From an uncultured Pseudomonadales bacterium (GTDB lineage Bacteria; Pseudomonadota; Gammaproteobacteria; Pseudomonadales; Pseudohongiellaceae): 64,000 nucleotides of DNA. How positions within the stretch are numbered: position 1 is the first letter of the stretch; the number at the start of each line of letters is the position of its first letter. This document shows positions 13,694-21,863 of the stretch, in pieces. Location: positions 1 through 64,000 of the forward strand of contig CALSUH010000008.1 in the NCBI GenBank assembly GCA_943789485.1. Direction: 5' to 3'. The translations under genes and the position numbers were made by a program. A model generated the notes under the pieces. The model worked only from the letters and a program-made list of their open reading frames with translations. It was not told where the DNA came from and searched no databases.

Positions 13694-14476
13694 CTAGATA
13701 CGATTAATCTCGCAGTGTAGACGGAATCTCCTGGAGGTCATGTACGCTTCGATCGCGCGCAAGCGTAATTCCATAGTGTTGTAGATTTCTGTACATTTAT
13801 CGCGTGAGTGCAGAGTGCTCGAATCTTTCTCAGCCTGTTCGTCATGCTCCTCGGTAGCAAACTGTTGTGTTGCATCCTTAAAGGCAGCATAGGCTTCATC
13901 GGCCGCGCCTTCCGCAAATTTCTCGTAGTCATCGTTAACATAGCTGTTACGATTTTTTCTTCTAGCTTTTCGTTCCACTTTTCGTTGCTTGCGTCTGGCT
14001 CGACGTTCTTGACGAGCACTAGTTGGTGCATGAGGGTCTGCTTCGAAAACGAATAGGCAGATTATATAGGCCCAGAAGGTAAAGGGGCCAAATACAATTA
14101 GTGAGAACAATGTGACTGCTCTTACGGCGAAAGCACTTACCTCGAAGTAATCGGCGATACCGCTGCATACGCCAGCAATGCGCTTGTTGCGCTCATTTTT
14201 GTAAATGGGCTTACGGTAATCCAATTGCTTGAAGTGCTCGGCGGTGCTGTCACTCTTAAAATAATTACGCATCTTATCTGCTGTAATATCTTTGTCGAGA
14301 CAGAAGTAAAGCAGGAAATAACCGATGATGAGAGTGGGCCAGGATATGACACAGATTACAAAAATTACACGGACCAGAGCGATTGGAACGTCCAGCCAAT
14401 TTGCAATACCTGCGCAGACTCCAAGCCAACGTGCGTTACGCCGATTCAGTTTTAATCTACTCGTGCCCGTGTTCAT
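13694..14476 (-). CDS. pspC: PspC-family envelope stress protein with two PspC domains
   Basis: A 260-residue protein with two successive PspC domains. The first (about residues 8-62) reads RRNARWLGVCAGIANWLDVP with a transmembrane helix; the second (about 92-148) reads NKRIAGVCSGIADYFEVSAF with another. E. coli PspC (119 residues) has one. A highly basic segment (about 152-175, rich in Arg/Lys) and an acidic alpha-helical tail follow. PspC senses inner-membrane damage with PspB and releases PspA from PspF. The start overlaps the end of pspB by 20 bp, so translation is coupled. The C-terminal tail beyond the second helix is not recognised and may be cytoplasmic. Confidence 0.88.
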   Translation of the reverse strand: MNTGTSRLKLNRRNARWLGVCAGIANWLDVPIALVRVIFVICVISWPTLIIGYFLLYFCLDKDITADKMRNYFKSDSTAEHFKQLDYRKPIYKNERNKRIAGVCSGIADYFEVSAFAVRAVTLFSLIVFGPFTFWAYIICLFVFEADPHAPTSARQERRARRKQRKVERKARRKNRNSYVNDDYEKFAEGAADEAYAAFKDATQQFATEEHDEQAEKDSSTLHSRDKCTEIYNTMELRLRAIEAYMTSRRFRLHCEINRI

Positions 14477-14696
14477 TCTGCTCCCTCCAATCCGGAACTT
14501 CCGCGTCCAGTATCGATTCGAGAATATCGATACGCTCTGTTAGCGATTGAGCCATCGCTGATAGCTCGTCCATATTGTATTTGCCATCTGGTTCGATACG
14601 CACAGAGCGTTTCCCTTTCCTCAGTAAGAATATCCACAGTGTGATGGAGCCGAACACAATGGCGAGTATCGCTAATATGAATTCAAATACAGCCAT
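14457..14696 (-). CDS. pspB: phage shock protein B
   Basis: A 79-residue protein with one N-terminal transmembrane helix (about residues 4-25, ending in LWIFLL), a short basic turn RKGKRS, and a cytoplasmic amphipathic part with LTERIDILESILDAEVPDWR. Size and the LxxRIxxLExILDAExPxWR pattern are diagnostic of PspB, which works with PspC as the inner-membrane sensor of the Psp response. It lies 8 bp downstream of pspA and overlaps pspC, forming pspABC on the minus strand. Confidence 0.93.
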   Translation of the reverse strand: MAVFEFILAILAIVFGSITLWIFLLRKGKRSVRIEPDGKYNMDELSAMAQSLTERIDILESILDAEVPDWREQNEHGHE

Positions 14697-14704
14697 CTTT
14701 ATGC

Positions 14705-15364
14705 CTATTGGTGTTTAAGTTTAGTTTTTAGTTCTTCAAGTTCTTGGTCTATAGATTCTTGCTTCTCGAGTTCGTCGAACTCGCTCTGCAAGCCACGCTT
14801 TTCGATGTGGATACTATCCATCTGACCTTCCATTTGATCTATCTTCTTTTCGTAATACTCAAATTTGTCCATGGCGTTGTCAATAGAGTAGCTGTGCAGT
14901 TGTCTATTAACATTGAGTCTGGACTGGGTTGCTGTGGTGCGCATGACAATCGTCTTCTGGCGAGCGCGCGCATCGTTGAGCTTTGCCTGTAGTTGCTCGA
15001 TCTCAGTGCTCAGCTTGTCCAGAGTTCCATCAAGCTTGGCTAGGTCTCTTTCAGTGATCTCGACGCTTGAGTTGATGTTGGATTTTTCCAGCAGAGCAGC
15101 CTTAGCTAGATCCTCTCGCCCCTTGGATAGTGCGAGTTCGGCCTTGCTTTCCCAGTCCTGTGCCTGCTTCTTAAGTTGCTCGGCGCGGCGGGCGAGTGTT
15201 TTCTTTTCGGCGATAACCTTGGCTGTGCCGCTACGGACCTCAACCAATGTTTCTTCCATTTCCTGAATGACCATGCGGATCATCTTCTCCGGATTCTCCG
15301 CCTTATCCAGCAGGGAGCTGATGTTGGAATTAATGATGTCCGACAGTCTATTAAATATACTCAT
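14705..15364 (-). CDS. pspA: phage shock protein A
   Basis: A 219-residue PspA/IM30 protein. The amphipathic N-terminal helix MSIFNRLSDIINSNISSLLD is followed by a nearly continuous coiled coil with PEKMIRMVIQEMEETLVEVR, the usual helix-2 motif. PspA forms ESCRT-III-like oligomers that stabilise damaged inner membrane, and when idle it inhibits PspF. The ATG at 15364 was chosen over an in-frame ATG 13 codons upstream because homologues begin at MSIF (an AGGTATCAACA region precedes it). A sigma54 promoter lies 65 bp upstream. It is the first gene of pspABC. Confidence 0.95.
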   Translation of the reverse strand: MSIFNRLSDIINSNISSLLDKAENPEKMIRMVIQEMEETLVEVRSGTAKVIAEKKTLARRAEQLKKQAQDWESKAELALSKGREDLAKAALLEKSNINSSVEITERDLAKLDGTLDKLSTEIEQLQAKLNDARARQKTIVMRTTATQSRLNVNRQLHSYSIDNAMDKFEYYEKKIDQMEGQMDSIHIEKRGLQSEFDELEKQESIDQELEELKTKLKHQ

Positions 15365-15428
15365 TGTTGATACCTCGAATGTACCGTTAGTCTCTAGTGC
15401 CATGCAAAGGCAGGCTTAGTTACTAATT

Positions 15429-15445
15429 AGCAGATAACGTGCCAA
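15429..15445 (-). promoter_or_regulatory. sigma54 promoter of pspABC
   Basis: On the minus strand the sequence reads TTGGCACGTTATCTGCT, which fits the sigma54 consensus TGGCACG-N4-TTGC with a single mismatch (C for the first T of the -12 element). It points at pspA, about 65 bp away, and lies in the divergent pspA-pspF intergenic region. PspF, encoded next door, is the cognate sigma54 activator. The match to element, spacing and context is strong. Confidence 0.88.
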
Positions 15446-15459
15446 TAATTAGACTATTA

Positions 15460-15472
15460 TAAGTCATTGATA
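15460..15472 (-). promoter_or_regulatory. IHF-binding site between the pspABC promoter and upstream PspF sites
   Basis: The minus strand reads TATCAATGACTTA, a full match to the IHF consensus WATCAANNNNTTR. It is centred about 35 bp upstream of the sigma54 -24 element. In E. coli, IHF bends DNA at this position to bring the PspF hexamer to the closed complex. PspF upstream sequences are expected in 15480-15530, which is AT-rich, but I cannot define them exactly. Confidence 0.6.
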
Positions 15473-15648
15473 ACAAATGGTTTAATTCTAATGGTATTTA
15501 CAAATAGCGGTCGATATTGTTAAATAACTTAACTAGTGGTCATTTTCACTACTCATATCACGTTTTGCCCCTCTGCTTTGATCAGGCCTACAATAAGCAG
15601 GCGAAAGGGCGGATAAGTTATTGTAAGCACTTGATAGTAAATAAAATT

Positions 15649-16677
15649 ATGTCTCAACAAAAATCAGCCCCAAGGATGATCGGCGAGTCTGCCAGCTTCC
15701 TTGAAATGCAGGAGCATATCTCCCACGTGGCACCGCTGAATAAGCCGGTTCTTTTCGTCGGTGAGCGAGGTACTGGTAAAGAATTAGTCGCTGCGCGACT
15801 GCACTATCTTTCTCAGCGATGGGAGCAGACCTTCCTGAAGATCAATTGTGCGGCGATGAGCGAAACCTTGTTAGAGGCTCAGCTATTCGGGCACGAGGCC
15901 GGGGCGTATACCGGCGCCACCAAGCAACGCAAAGGTTTTTTTGAGCGCGCCCATGGCGGCACTTTGTTCATGGATGAGCTCGCCAATACGCCGATGCCCG
16001 TGCAGGAAAAAATACTCCGAGTAATAGAATACGGTGAATTCGAAAGGCTCGGTGGCAATGAAACACTTCACGTCGACGTAAGAATCGTAGGGGCAACTAA
16101 CGAAGACCTTCCCGACCTGGCAAGCCAAGGTCGATTTAGAGAAGATCTATTGGACAGGCTCGCGTTTGATGTCGTGACGTTGCCTCCGCTTAGAGAACGT
16201 GCAGAAGATATTTTGATTCTTGCTGAGTATTTTGCCGTGGGCATGGTGAAAGAAATCGGCGGAGAATACTTCGCTGGATTTTCCGATAAGGTAGAGAAGG
16301 CTTTAGGAAAATACTCCTGGCCTGGAAACATTCGACAGCTAAAAAATGTCATTGAGCGAGCGGTTTACCAAAATGGCGACGGCCATATTACTCAGCTCGT
16401 CTTCAACCCCTTCGAATCACCTTATCGCTTAAGGGCGAGTGCGAAGGTTCAAGCCGAGGAAGGCGCGGGCAGTGCAGGCAAGAGCTGCATATCGCCCCCC
16501 GACTTATCCACTGCGGATTCTTTCGATTTCAAGAGTGAGGTGCAAGAGTTTGAAATCAATCTTCTTAATCAGGCGATGGAGCAGAATCAATTCAATCAGA
16601 AGAAGGCGGCCGAGTTTCTGAACTTGAGCTATCACCAACTGCGCGGCTATCTGCGCAAGTACGATTTACTGAATTAA
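15649..16677 (+). CDS. pspF: PspF, sigma54-dependent activator of the psp operon
   Basis: A 342-residue AAA+ enhancer-binding protein without a receiver domain, as is normal for PspF. Walker A is GERGTGKE (38-45), the sigma54-contacting loop is GAYTGA (85-90; Tyr replaces the usual Phe, an accepted variant), and Walker B is GGTLFMDE (103-110). Arg finger and sensor II regions (RFREDLLDRL, WPGNIRQLKNV) are present. A C-terminal Fis-type HTH (NQKKAAEFLNLSYHQLRGYL) binds DNA. The in-frame extension to 15517 is rejected; homologues start near MSQQK...IGES. It is divergent from pspABC and followed by a strong terminator. Confidence 0.94.
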   Translation: MSQQKSAPRMIGESASFLEMQEHISHVAPLNKPVLFVGERGTGKELVAARLHYLSQRWEQTFLKINCAAMSETLLEAQLFGHEAGAYTGATKQRKGFFERAHGGTLFMDELANTPMPVQEKILRVIEYGEFERLGGNETLHVDVRIVGATNEDLPDLASQGRFREDLLDRLAFDVVTLPPLRERAEDILILAEYFAVGMVKEIGGEYFAGFSDKVEKALGKYSWPGNIRQLKNVIERAVYQNGDGHITQLVFNPFESPYRLRASAKVQAEEGAGSAGKSCISPPDLSTADSFDFKSEVQEFEINLLNQAMEQNQFNQKKAAEFLNLSYHQLRGYLRKYDLLN

Positions 16678-18233: not shown

Positions 18234-18818
18234 TTAGGTGAAGTCGCGCACTAGGGAATTACTGATCTCGGCGGGCAGGACATCGCTGCTGTGTTGGTAG
18301 TTTTGATGGCCGCTGCGTAGCACCCATGCTGCGCCGTCTTTTGCCGCTGCGATCATGTCATCTTCGAACTCGAAACGCAGGAAATGCACCGCCGAGGTCT
18401 TCTCGTCGGTGGAGCGAGCTAGGTCTTCATTGGCGATGGGGTAAACCGGGTCGAAACCATCGATCTGAATAGAGACTAATTCTTCTATCCCGATTAACTG
18501 GCTCAAGCGAAGCTTACGTTCTGACTCATCGGGAAATTCAAGCATGAATGTTGCTTTCAGATTCTTGCCATCGGGAATCAGTGGATTGTAGGCTTCTAAC
18601 TCTTCGAGGAGTTCGGCCTCGCCGCTGATTTTTTCGACGCGAATCAGTTCCAGAACCTGATAGCGCATGACCATATAGTCTTCGAAGTGGAGCATTGCAT
18701 TCGGGCCTAGAGGGAGGCGCCGTGTCTTCTTATGCTCCATCATAGCTTGCCGAATCGCGGGGCGCTGTTCGGTGTAGGCTTCGATGCTCATTAGGTCGGA
18801 GATGCTAATTTTCTTCAT
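18234..18818 (-). CDS. DUF3501 family protein
   Basis: A 194-residue soluble protein beginning KKISISDLMSIEAYTEQRPAIR and containing LPLGPNAMLHFEDYMVMRYQ, the signature N-terminal block of DUF3501. Proteins of this family are almost always encoded beside a rubrerythrin and a GlpC/HdrD-like Fe-S oxidoreductase, as here. The function is unknown; the association points to peroxide or electron-transfer chemistry. It lies 33 bp downstream of the Fe-S oxidoreductase gene and is the last gene of the set. Confidence 0.88.
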   Translation of the reverse strand: MKKISISDLMSIEAYTEQRPAIRQAMMEHKKTRRLPLGPNAMLHFEDYMVMRYQVLELIRVEKISGEAELLEELEAYNPLIPDGKNLKATFMLEFPDESERKLRLSQLIGIEELVSIQIDGFDPVYPIANEDLARSTDEKTSAVHFLRFEFEDDMIAAAKDGAAWVLRSGHQNYQHSSDVLPAEISNSLVRDFT

Positions 18819-18851
18819 TTGTCTTAATCCTAAATTTGGCGTATTCGTTTT

Positions 18852-20192
18852 CTATATGCCATATGCATGGCAGAGAAGGTCGAGAGGGTGGATAGCTTTC
18901 TGATCGTTATCCAGATTATTTTCGATATGCTTGCCGGCCACGGGGCAGTCACTGCCATAAAAATCAGGAACCTGCTCGCGGATTTGCTTAACGATAGGAC
19001 GAGCAATCTTATTGGCGAATTCGAAAGTCTCTGACTTGACGCCGTAAGTACCATCGTGGCCCGAGCATCGTTCGATATTCTTAACGTTAGTCTCTTCAAT
19101 AAGTTCGAGAATCTGTTTCGTTTTTGGGCCGATGTTCTGCACACGCTGGTGGCAGGCCACGTGATAGCTCACGTTACCGAGGGGATTCTTGAACTCAGTA
19201 TTGAACTTTCCAGCCTTGTGTAACTTATGCAGATATTCGAATGGATCAAAGAACGCTTGTCCTACCGCAAGCACCTTCTCATCACTGGGAAACATAAGCG
19301 GCAGTTCTTGCTTGAACATCAAAACGCAAGAAGGAACCGCGGCGATGATTGCATTGCCGGCTTTCACCATTTCATACAACGCCGGGATATTCTTATCCTT
19401 GAGCTGTGTAACGCTCTTCAGATCGCCCAGTTCTAGCTTTGGCATGCCGCAGCAGTGTTCTCTTGTGGCTAGGTTTACTTTGACATTGTTGTGTTCGAGC
19501 ACCTTGATCACGCTGTCCGCGATCGATGGTTCGTTGTAGTTGCAGTAACAGGTCGTAAACAGAGTGACTTGTTCGCGCTCAATGCTAGATTCGGCATTAG
19601 CTTCAGCCGGGTTGTAGATGTGCGCTGCGTGCTTCTTGCGCGCTGGCTGGTTGGTATATTCAGGAAGCTTGGCATCTTTGTGTATGCCCATGGTCTTGTC
19701 GAGCATGCCGCGCAGCACGCCATTTTTATTAGCGCCATTGACGATGGCGTTAATAACGGGCTTCGTCGCCACCTTGCCGATCATGTCGGTGCTGGTGATG
19801 ACATTGTCGCGGAATTTGCTTTCGCCTTTCTTGAATTTGACGGCCTTTGCTCGCAGCATTAAGTGCGGGAAGTCGACGTTCCATTCATGGGGCGGGACAT
19901 AGGGGCACTTTGTGAGGTAGCACAAATCGCAGAGATAGCATTGATCGACTACCTTGCTGTAGTCGGCAACATCGATACCGTCGACTTCTAGGGTTGGGCT
20001 TTCGTCTACCAGGTCAAACAGTGTTGGGAAGGCGTTGCAGAGACTGACACAGCGTCGGCAGCCATGACAGATGTCATAGACTCGCTCTAACTCTTTGTTA
20101 AGATTGTCTTCATCCCAGAACACGGGATCATTTTGGTTGAGCGGATGCCTGGTGGGCGCGCTCAGACCGCCTTCTCTGTTTTGATCAGACAT
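18852..20192 (-). CDS. Fe-S oxidoreductase, heterodisulfide-reductase/GlpC-like
   Basis: A 446-residue cytoplasmic or membrane-associated protein. Two 4Fe-4S ferredoxin-type motifs lie near the N-terminus: C42-x2-C45-x2-C48-x3-C52 and C85-x2-C88-x2-C91-x4-C96. Two cysteine-rich CCG-type regions follow (EHCCGMPKLELG, and VACHQRVQ with ERCSGHDGTYG), as in HdrD and GlpC. No flavin domain is present, so it should pass electrons between a carrier and a partner. The conserved neighbourhood with DUF3501 and rubrerythrin suggests it feeds electrons to the rubrerythrin that reduces peroxide; this is inference. The true family name is often given as 'heterodisulfide reductase-related iron-sulfur binding cluster'. 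Confidence 0.9.
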   Translation of the reverse strand: MSDQNREGGLSAPTRHPLNQNDPVFWDEDNLNKELERVYDICHGCRRCVSLCNAFPTLFDLVDESPTLEVDGIDVADYSKVVDQCYLCDLCYLTKCPYVPPHEWNVDFPHLMLRAKAVKFKKGESKFRDNVITSTDMIGKVATKPVINAIVNGANKNGVLRGMLDKTMGIHKDAKLPEYTNQPARKKHAAHIYNPAEANAESSIEREQVTLFTTCYCNYNEPSIADSVIKVLEHNNVKVNLATREHCCGMPKLELGDLKSVTQLKDKNIPALYEMVKAGNAIIAAVPSCVLMFKQELPLMFPSDEKVLAVGQAFFDPFEYLHKLHKAGKFNTEFKNPLGNVSYHVACHQRVQNIGPKTKQILELIEETNVKNIERCSGHDGTYGVKSETFEFANKIARPIVKQIREQVPDFYGSDCPVAGKHIENNLDNDQKAIHPLDLLCHAYGI

Positions 20193-20292
20193 AAGGAACT
20201 CAATTTTTTGGACTTGAAACTACGGAAATACTAGTAGCAGTGTAGAGCTTTGATTTTGAACTGCGCGAGCTTTTACTGCGATTTTTCAAATT

Positions 20293-20315
20293 GCTGGCAT
20301 CAATTTGATGCCAGC
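20293..20315 (-). terminator. perfect hairpin between rubrerythrin and the Fe-S oxidoreductase gene
   Basis: GCTGGCATCA-ATT-TGATGCCAGC is a 10-bp perfect stem with a 3-nt loop, placed 21 bp after the rubrerythrin stop on the minus strand. It is followed by AATTTGAAAAATC, not a clean U-run. It probably acts as an attenuator or mRNA 3' stabiliser that raises rubrerythrin output over the downstream genes. Confidence 0.55.
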
Positions 20316-20335
20316 TACTCGACTTAGGATGCTTT

Positions 20336-20755
20336 TTAGTCGTCTAAGGCATCCAATGCTTTCTGAAAACGGTTAGCGTGTGAGCGCTCAGCCTTCGCCA
20401 GAGTCTCCATCCAATCGGCAATTTCATCGAAGCCTTCATCGCGGGCATCTTTTGCCATGCCAGGGTACATGTCGGTGTACTCATGCGTTTCACCGGCAAC
20501 GGCTGACTTCAGGTTATCTTCGGTGCCGCCAATAGGCATGCCAGTTGCAGGATCACCAACCTCTTCGAGATACTCAAGATGGCCGTGCGCGTGTCCAGTT
20601 TCGCCTTCCGCTGTTGAGCGGAAAAGTGCAGATACATCGTTGTACCCTTCGACGTCAGCCTTCTGGGCGAAATACAGGTAGCGACGATTCGCCTGGGATT
20701 CGCCTGCGAATGCAGCTTTCAAATTTTCTTCTGTCTTTGAACCTTTCAATGACAT
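20336..20755 (-). CDS. rubrerythrin without rubredoxin domain
   Basis: A 139-residue ferritin-like di-iron protein. Helices carry the expected ligand motifs: AGESQANRRY, AEGETGHAHGH (E-x2-H), AGETHEYTDMY and AKAERSHANRF (E-x2-H). The C-terminal rubredoxin domain with paired CxxC of classical rubrerythrin is absent, so electrons must come from another protein. The adjacent Fe-S oxidoreductase is the obvious candidate. The start at MSLKGSKTEENL (20755) has an AGGAGAAACACC ribosome-binding region; a longer start at 20779 is less likely. It is transcribed divergently from oxyR, fitting control by peroxide. Confidence 0.93.
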   Translation of the reverse strand: MSLKGSKTEENLKAAFAGESQANRRYLYFAQKADVEGYNDVSALFRSTAEGETGHAHGHLEYLEEVGDPATGMPIGGTEDNLKSAVAGETHEYTDMYPGMAKDARDEGFDEIADWMETLAKAERSHANRFQKALDALDD

Positions 20756-20887: not shown

Positions 20888-20928
20888 TAATCGATTTTTT
20901 TGAGTGCTTTGATCGTTTTTATCGATTA
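20888..20928. promoter_or_regulatory. inverted repeat in the rubrerythrin-oxyR intergenic region (candidate OxyR site)
   Basis: TAATCGAT (20888-20895) and ATCGATTA (20921-20928) are perfect inverted copies 33 bp apart centre to centre, about three helical turns on the same DNA face. OxyR contacts spaced dyads over four major grooves, so the geometry is suitable. The sequence does not match the E. coli ATAG-N7-CTAT consensus well, so the assignment is contextual. Confidence 0.4.
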
Positions 20929-20939
20929 TGATTTTAGTC

Positions 20940-21863
20940 ATGAATCCTTCGATTAAGCAGCTTAAATACCTCTGCGCGGTAGCCGAGCACCGGCACTTCA
21001 GTAAGGCCGCAGTGGCCTGCCATGTTACGCAGTCCACCCTAAGTGCAGCAATACAGGAGCTCGAATCCCAGCTCGGCGTGAAGATATTTGAGCGTAACAA
21101 GAAGACGGTGCTGATCACCTCTCTAGGTCAGAAGCTTTTGCTGCAGGCGCGCATAGTTCTGGGCGACGTTGAGGACTTCGTAGGTATTGCTCGTGCTCAT
21201 GAAGCTCCGCTTGTGGGGGACCTGCGCTTAGGGGTAATTCCAACCATAGGGCCATTCCTATTACCCGCCATTCTTTCGGAGCTTCGTAAGAGTTTTGACA
21301 AGCTGAAGCTCTATCTAAAAGAAGAGATGAGTGCACAGCTCGTTCAGCAATTACAGCAGGGGCAGCTGGACCTAATCATTCTGGCATTTCCCTTCCCGTT
21401 GCCTGATATGGAGACAGTGAGTCTGTTTAAAGACGAATTTTTGCTCTGTCTTCCACCGGGTCACGAATTAGAGAAGGTGAAGCAGGTGAAGCAGCATCAG
21501 CTGCGCGGACAGAGCCTTCTGCTTCTCGAAGAGGGGCACTGTCTTCGCGATCATGCATTGGAGGCCTGCAAATTGGAGAGCGCCGATACCGATCTTGTCT
21601 ATCAGGGGACGAGTCTGCACACCCTGGTGCAAATGGTGGCAAACGGGCTGGGTATGACGCTATTGCCTGCTATGTCGATTAAGGCTGATGTGCTGGGCGA
21701 TACGCATCTGCAGATCAAACGTTTCTCTAACGAGAATGTGTCCAGAGAAGTCGGTATGGCGTGGCGTAAGTCAGATCCACGCCGAGCAGAATATTTGTTA
21801 TTGGCTGAGTTTGTAAAGGAGCATATCGGTCATTCGGCCGAATCGGACAAGAAGTCTAAATGA
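20940..21863 (+). CDS. oxyR: OxyR, peroxide-sensing LysR-type regulator
   Basis: A 307-residue LysR-type protein with an N-terminal winged HTH (HFSKAAVACHVTQSTLSAAI, about 19-38) and a periplasmic-binding-fold effector domain. The redox pair is conserved: C201 and C210 in GHCLRDHALEAC, equal to C199 and C208 of E. coli OxyR, which form a disulfide when oxidised by H2O2. The ATG at 20940 is preferred to one at 20928 because homologues begin close to the IKQLKYL segment. It is divergent from the rubrerythrin set and overlaps the following phosphoesterase gene by 4 bp (ATGA). Confidence 0.93.
   Translation: MNPSIKQLKYLCAVAEHRHFSKAAVACHVTQSTLSAAIQELESQLGVKIFERNKKTVLITSLGQKLLLQARIVLGDVEDFVGIARAHEAPLVGDLRLGVIPTIGPFLLPAILSELRKSFDKLKLYLKEEMSAQLVQQLQQGQLDLIILAFPFPLPDMETVSLFKDEFLLCLPPGHELEKVKQVKQHQLRGQSLLLLEEGHCLRDHALEACKLESADTDLVYQGTSLHTLVQMVANGLGMTLLPAMSIKADVLGDTHLQIKRFSNENVSREVGMAWRKSDPRRAEYLLLAEFVKEHIGHSAESDKKSK

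Follow-up and report, generated by a model that had tools for sequence, protein, structure and literature searches.

An aerobic-type rubrerythrin operon beside oxyR in a Pseudohongiellaceae contig, and two operators that appear in the rbr promoters of its relatives

A single-domain rubrerythrin (RBR), an Fe-S protein (RFO) and a DUF3501 protein have been described together as the "aerobic-type" rubrerythrin system, with the three genes co-occurring in 185 of 4461 genomes and RFO proposed to compensate for the lost rubredoxin domain (Cardenas, Quatrini and Holmes, 2016; PMC5114695). The proposal has been repeated elsewhere (PMC7465337) and the cluster has been described in Acidihalobacter (PMC7760498), while in Andalucia all three proteins carry predicted mitochondrial targeting, the trio being present in some other eukaryotes as well (PMC7050145). 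The same three genes lie beside oxyR in the stretch analysed here, hereafter the window, i.e. the whole of positions 1 to 64,000 (64,000 nucleotides, forward strand) of contig CALSUH010000008.1 from an uncultured Pseudomonadales bacterium (Gammaproteobacteria, Pseudohongiellaceae; assembly GCA_943789485.1). The peroxide-defence set at this locus is one that has been published before, and the system is not new. What appears to be new is that one or the other of two operators is present in most rbr promoters, the oxyR linkage being meaningful, yet one of two alternative wirings.

Several reports bear on the enzyme and its regulation. Ferriperoxin of Hydrogenobacter thermophilus, a single-domain rubrerythrin like the RBR of the window, is in vitro a peroxidase that draws its electrons from NADPH through ferredoxin-NADP reductase (FNR); it reduces H2O2 as well as organic peroxides, and its disruption abolishes aerobic growth (PMC3317640). 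In this organism the RFO gene is located apart from the other two (PMC5114695). In Burkholderia pseudomallei the genes bpss1837-1839, which would correspond to DUF3501, RFO and RBR, are co-induced by H2O2 with table values of 3.31 to 3.37 and with sigma-E dependence (PMC4175613). The genes for RBR, COG0247 and DUF3501 of Sideroxydans lithotrophicus are clustered with oxyR as in the window, but what the available portion of that source reports is adjacency, with no operator described (PMC7852563). Likewise, the main text of Cardenas et al. does not mention OxyR (count 0), and the accessible part of the article holds no operator analysis. More generally, no operator analysis of the RBR-RFO-DUF3501 operon was found in the literature, mostly open-access and with regulon databases set aside, and a prior description may exist.

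In the window a single run of genes encodes DUF3501, the GlpC/HdrD-like Fe-S protein and the rubrerythrin without rubredoxin domain, and oxyR points away from it. The order on the minus strand is rbr, rfo, DUF3501, with spacers of 143 bp (RBR-RFO) and 33 bp (RFO-DUF3501), and oxyR diverges across a gap of 172 bp:

20336-20755, minus strand: rbr, single-domain "aerobic-type" rubrerythrin, 139 amino acids (PF02915, E 1.6e-29)
18852-20192, minus strand: RFO, GlpC/HdrD-like CCG-domain Fe-S protein, 446 amino acids (PF02754 CCG domain in two stretches, 5.3e-14)
18234-18818, minus strand: DUF3501 protein, 194 amino acids, no cysteine (PF12007, E 4.7e-59)
20928-21863, plus strand: oxyR, LysR family, with the C205/C214 pair (NF008361, 255 bits, cut-off 329)
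20890-20926, minus strand: putative OxyR operator ATCG-N7-CGAT-N18-CGAT in the rbr-oxyR intergenic region

Pfam families and coordinates thus confirm the gene set that the original prediction had placed beside oxyR, namely DUF3501, an HdrD-like Fe-S protein and a rubrerythrin without rubredoxin domain. The RBR is sulerythrin-like, and DUF3501 and a CCG-domain Fe-S oxidoreductase are co-located with it, as in the aerobic type; the families, their adjacency and co-occurrence, the absent rubredoxin domain and the proposal of RFO as partner are all shared with the system of Cardenas et al.

The oxyR product combines a LysR helix-turn-helix with a substrate domain, and OxyR is its best NCBIfam model. 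The motif CLRDHALEAC at residues 205-214 holds C205 and C214, whose spacing and role we take to be those of the peroxide-sensing cysteine pair of OxyR. The putative operator lies 135-171 bp upstream of the rbr ATG and abuts the start of oxyR, which may instead be the second ATG at 20940. The seven oxyR-linked relatives closest to the window (L035-L040 and L042) retain ATCG-N7-CGAT, L040 nearly so, and the full pattern, with a third half-site in OxyR register, is found in five of these eight loci, the window included (L040 has 10/11 positions, L038 and L042 9/11). L041, whose rbr is equally close (97%), has no oxyR and no such box. A scan of the window for the ATCG pattern returned one exact site and five with at most one mismatch against 0.84 expected. 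The own genome holds the exact pattern four times, as opposed to none for the reversed control; one copy is at rbr, two others are inside predicted open reading frames (ORFs; L123 and L125) and one overlaps an ORF end (L122).

Three points weigh against activation of the operon by OxyR. The classical OxyR operator is presumably ATAG-N7-CTAT-N7-ATAG-N7-CTAT, and the window box, although in register, has the ATCG/CGAT form and three of the four tetrads. Against the classical consensus it scores 10/16, no better than shuffles, and a promoter scan of the region yielded one sigma-70-like site against 3.4 expected. The assignment as an OxyR operator is plausible, not proven. All eight members of the window clade combine the recognition helix TQSTLSAAI with ATCG-type boxes. 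A clean covariation of helix and box was considered and rejected, as L079 joins an ATCG-type box to a classical SQPTLS...KLE helix. The linkage of OxyR to rubrerythrin is also present for another rubrerythrin type, since in eight genomes (G127, G067, G113, G125, G021, G071, G111 and G052) an OxyR homologue lies 133-385 bp from a distant rubrerythrin of 39-48% identity, by hand count.

The comparison of promoters was based on a discovery set made up of the window and 80 named rbr loci, the best 80 of at least 591 confirmed stretches and hence close relatives, from which 300 bp upstream of rbr were taken, with single-base shuffles as a first control. The palindrome TTAGA-N5-TCTAA, the ATCG patterns and the relaxed OxyR tetrad letters were chosen after viewing this set, and its loci are related to one another, the counts being of non-independent events. 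An OxyR-type box only was present in 36 promoters, the palindrome only in 32, both in three and neither in ten; L038 and L042, being close relatives, were counted as OxyR-box promoters despite a lower score. As a within-locus control, 24,159 bp upstream of rbr were compared with 848,894 bp elsewhere: the palindrome was perfect 29 vs 2 times and matched at 9/10 or more 38 vs 13 times, the OxyR tetrad reached at least 13/14 in 16 vs 2 cases and at least 12 in 26 vs 6, and the full ATCG form occurred 8 vs 1 times. At the looser cut-off of at least 10/11 the ATCG form gave 23 sites upstream vs 24 elsewhere, so that a lone ATCG call at this level is weak. A LysR/OxyR gene was present in the locus for 19/36 OxyR-box-only promoters (window included), 0/35 with the palindrome and 2/10 with neither (Fisher 1.5e-7 for OxyR-box-only vs palindrome). 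The palindrome is centred at a median of 73 bp upstream of the start codon (n=35) and the OxyR box ends at a median of 100 bp upstream (n=39), positions that would be expected for a repressor and an activator, respectively.

The cut-offs were then kept fixed for a held-out set of 62 promoters (58 further rbr upstream regions from genomes of the class plus six loci, minus two that overlapped the discovery set), of which 41 carried the palindrome, nine the OxyR box and 12 neither, with none carrying both. A LysR gene was found in the stretch for 2/9, 0/41 and 1/12 of the OxyR-box, palindrome and neither classes. Comparing 18,490 bp upstream with 196,272 bp elsewhere, the palindrome at 9 or more occurred 44 vs 0 times, the OxyR tetrad 8 vs 1 times at 12 or more and 3 vs 1 at 13 or more, and the ATCG form 4 vs 0 times at 10 or more. 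The full ATCG form was absent from both compartments (0 vs 0); among scored promoters it is found in the discovery set only, where five of its eight cases are the window and close relatives. A wider palindrome regulon was rejected: 15 genomes selected for a palindrome at rbr contained 26 sites vs 13 for the reversed control, 17 of them at rbr and nine elsewhere (assigned by hand), the non-rbr sites being at background. Two palindromes away from rbr are only suggestive: one just upstream of a Dps-like gene and a redoxin-glutaredoxin gene, beside an OxyR-like gene (L142:1531, G161), and one just upstream of a di-haem cytochrome c peroxidase gene (L144:1565, G155). A third (L141:1543-1557, G159) precedes by about 50 bp a gene whose product is a 4Fe-4S dicluster protein with Fer4_8, by eye similar to HdrC.

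A candidate for the palindrome-binding protein came from the neighbouring genes. Fur-family genes are present in seven of the 80 discovery loci (L056, L081, L095, L099, L101, L111 and L112), and the four proteins scanned (L056, L081, L111 and L112) are nearest to Irr/IrrA models, followed by PerRA or PerRB. L056, titled Rhodospirillaceae, alone passes both Irr/IrrA cut-offs, the other three remaining below them with 103-115 vs 150-170 bits. The palindrome itself resembles what we take to be the alphaproteobacterial Irr box, or iron control element. No Fur-family neighbour was seen in the 62 held-out stretches, most of which cover the upstream side only.

The distribution of this regulator was assessed in a sample of 143 genomes of the class, in which the L081 protein as query gave one match each in 59 genomes (E up to 1e-14). 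The Irr/PerR-like protein was present in 41/43 palindrome genomes, 0/10 OxyR-box genomes, 6/11 with neither and 12/79 that lack this rubrerythrin (palindrome against OxyR box, Fisher 3e-9). The 43 are made up of 41 held-out genomes, 39 of them with the protein, and of G001 and G126, for which the discovery copy determined the class; the window's own genome (84% complete) is among the ten, as is G088, which has another rbr copy without either box. The two palindrome genomes in which no Irr/PerR-like protein was detected at E 1e-14 are G011 (97% complete) and G087 (93%). The regulator gene lies 23 bp (G142), 61 bp (G093) and 102 bp (G006) from DUF3501, and in four further genomes it is on the same contig at a distance of at least 33 kb. 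OxyR homologues (E up to 1e-38, counted by hand and by E-value alone) are found in 34/43 palindrome genomes and 10/10 OxyR-box genomes, and OxyR has therefore mostly not been lost where the palindrome is used.

From these distributions we infer that the Irr/PerR-like protein binds the palindrome. It is likely that across the class one of two nearly exclusive sensors controls the aerobic rubrerythrin operon. In some genomes a Fur-family protein of the Irr/PerR-like kind, with a near-dedicated regulon, would act on TTAGA-N5-TCTAA close to the start of rbr, and in others OxyR would act on a tetrad box lying farther upstream. In the window lineage, where oxyR is linked to the operon, the OxyR operator would have drifted to ATCG-N7-CGAT. 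The split points to candidate regulators for a system whose regulation was not found described in the literature searched, and, if true, the two-sensor wiring would turn the trio into a point at which control can pass from iron/haem sensing to peroxide sensing or back. With regard to the OxyR linkage of the original prediction, the operon does stand beside oxyR in the window lineage, but the arrangement is lineage-specific, 41/62 held-out relatives carrying the palindrome.

The prevalence of the palindrome also bears on the function of the trio, whose main task during oxidative stress could be iron handling (ferroxidase activity, iron sequestration, or repair of Fe-S or di-iron sites), peroxide being reduced only incidentally. 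According to the literature, Irr is tied to the status of haem or iron, and a rubrerythrin transcript of Pelagibacter, which may or may not belong to this trio, rises 1.57-fold under iron limitation (PMC2864753). Nevertheless, the operon is beside oxyR in the window lineage and the homologue ferriperoxin has been shown to be a peroxidase, and we regard a primary role in iron handling as improbable.

The peroxide-defence reading gains from the proteins themselves. RBR has PF02915 as its sole domain and contains no cysteine and no rubredoxin domain. Residues E19, E52, H55, E89, E92, E123 and H126, each present in at least 98% of 81 sequences, are the probable di-iron ligands, as we assume. In the alignment with sulerythrin, E52 and E123 fall on E53 and E126, residues named in a PDB title. 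Sulerythrin (1j30) and the PDB rubrerythrins 4di0 and 9onm, the latter two presumably from B. pseudomallei, align with RBR over nearly the full length (E 3e-52 and about 5e-75) and share its ligand residues; their entries list rubrerythrin or sulerythrin alone.

RFO had been predicted to contain two 4Fe-4S motifs and CCG regions. The two CxxCxxCxxxC motifs are present, with Fe-S ligands C42/45/48/52 and C85/88/91/96, and the first CCG region is complete (C215, C247-C248, C289), but the second (C347, C376, C416) reads CSG instead of CCG. All these cysteines are each conserved in at least 98% of 71 sequences, and hydropathy indicates no membrane span (maximum 19-residue value 1.66). RFO falls under the cut-off of every one of the eight NCBIfam models matched, including both GlpC models (228 bits vs 278 for NF008369, 157 vs 280 for TIGR03379). 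Its predicted structure (predicted local distance difference test, pLDDT, 90.7) resembles LutA (template modelling score 0.80 by target) and HdrB (0.62-0.65), with a loose match to EtfD (402 columns, root-mean-square deviation 9.1). The modelled likeness to these electron-relay proteins is consistent with a donor role, and is no proof of it.

For DUF3501 (pLDDT 95.7) the sole fold match with E of 0.001 or less is 3fjv, a solved DUF3501 relative that also matches by sequence, so that the fold search gives no function. Lacking cysteine, the protein is an improbable candidate for an Fe-S or dithiol carrier. In one genome (G034:C1:277781-278540) DUF3501 matches in two separate pieces, beside rfo and rbr.

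The same 143 genomes allowed the co-occurrence of the trio to be counted, with RFO accepted at E up to 1e-40 and rubrerythrin at 76% identity or more. DUF3501 was found in 63 genomes, RFO in 62 and the close rubrerythrin in 64 (72 with distant rubrerythrins); all three are present in 61/65 genomes bearing any member and none in 78, in agreement with the original prediction, for which the genes should not be found together only rarely. The trio is thus widespread, in 61/143 sampled genomes of the class. That it is an ordinary neighbourhood without joint function is rejected by this co-occurrence (Fisher 2e-40 to 2e-35, the listed rows each having a different family number), to which the predicted mitochondrial targeting of all three proteins in Andalucia adds (PMC7050145); such a coincidence has practically no probability left. 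At the level of loci, 69 of the 80 rbr loci hold the complete trio, with RFO between the other two. Among the remaining 11, seven are cut by contig ends, L107 (genome G146) has no close RFO, and L045, L104 and L057 were rejected as cases of rubrerythrin without partners, RFO and DUF3501 being elsewhere in their genomes (G143, G144 and G145, with a partial RFO match in G145). Of two rbr copies on contigs C27 and C73 of G088 (L120, L121), one adjoins DUF3501 and the other RFO; they may be a duplicated operon split between copies, or an assembly or binning effect.

We lean towards the view that the window holds the published aerobic-type system as an OxyR-activated peroxide defence, in which RBR reduces peroxide, RFO is the likely donor and DUF3501 a likely docking, assembly or metal-loading factor. 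The co-occurrence speaks for this view, as do the OxyR-type operators and the peroxide induction in print. Judging from the operator and the gene layout, under H2O2 stress oxidised OxyR would bind the shared intergenic operator and activate rbr-rfo-DUF3501. The di-iron rubrerythrin would turn H2O2, and probably organic peroxides, into water, as is in print for the homologue ferriperoxin. RFO would most likely be the source of electrons, which would pass from a reduced carrier (quinol, flavoprotein or ferredoxin) to the two 4Fe-4S clusters, on to the CCG-domain cluster and finally to the di-iron site, and DUF3501 most likely contacts rubrerythrin directly. A dedicated peroxide-reduction pathway with RFO as donor, as put forward in the original prediction, is accordingly the best reading on co-occurrence, operators and published induction, though not a novelty, having already been proposed (PMC5114695).

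Several observations weigh against RFO as an obligatory donor. Its electron transfer to rubrerythrin has no biochemistry in the accessible portion of the literature on the trio, ferriperoxin works with NADPH/FNR (PMC3317640), and the own genome encodes a free rubredoxin as an alternative donor. G064, a 100% complete genome, encodes RBR and DUF3501 but gives no match to RFO at E 0.001, G146 encodes the same two with just a distant 27% match to RFO, RFO stands alone in G116 and rubrerythrin alone in G032. That the enzyme depends on RFO as its external donor is accordingly unproven. One could then suppose that rubrerythrin and DUF3501 are the working core and RFO an aerobic extra serving to reactivate or protect the enzyme, electrons normally coming from the housekeeping rubredoxin or from FNR, which suffices in vitro. 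Rubrerythrin is indeed present in 63/63 DUF3501 genomes, two of which, G064 and G079 (81% complete, DUF3501 cut by a contig end), have these two genes only, and RBR-DUF3501 pairs without RFO are reported in the Thermoproteales (PMC5114695). Yet RFO is present in 61/63 DUF3501 genomes and sits between the two others in most loci, and this alternative is rather unlikely, if less so than a primary iron function. What these genome and locus counts do change is the place of DUF3501, which had been regarded as a possible accessory and is at least as constant a partner of rubrerythrin as RFO. Genomes that lack RFO offer natural strains for comparison, from which one could tell which of the two partners, RFO or DUF3501, is the essential one. 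A displaced reductase was looked for among the neighbouring ORFs of RFO-less loci, inspected by eye with no family scan, and no convincing replacement carrier was seen; in L107, ORFs that by eye resemble AhpC and AhpF lie some 1.8 kb downstream, which may be coincidence.

As regards the surroundings of the operon, a metallophosphoesterase gene comes next after oxyR. On the other side, after DUF3501 and on the same strand, the window encodes a class-C beta-lactamase-like serine hydrolase (PF00144; 16775-18091, minus strand), and similar-looking ORFs follow DUF3501 in L035, L037, L038, L039 and L042, the Pfam basis being restricted to the window and L039. Further along, positions 13694-16677 hold a phage-shock-like set, with a PspA family gene at 14705-15403, a sigma-54 activator at 15517-16677 that we take to resemble PspF, and an ORF at 13694-14476 that may be PspC-like.

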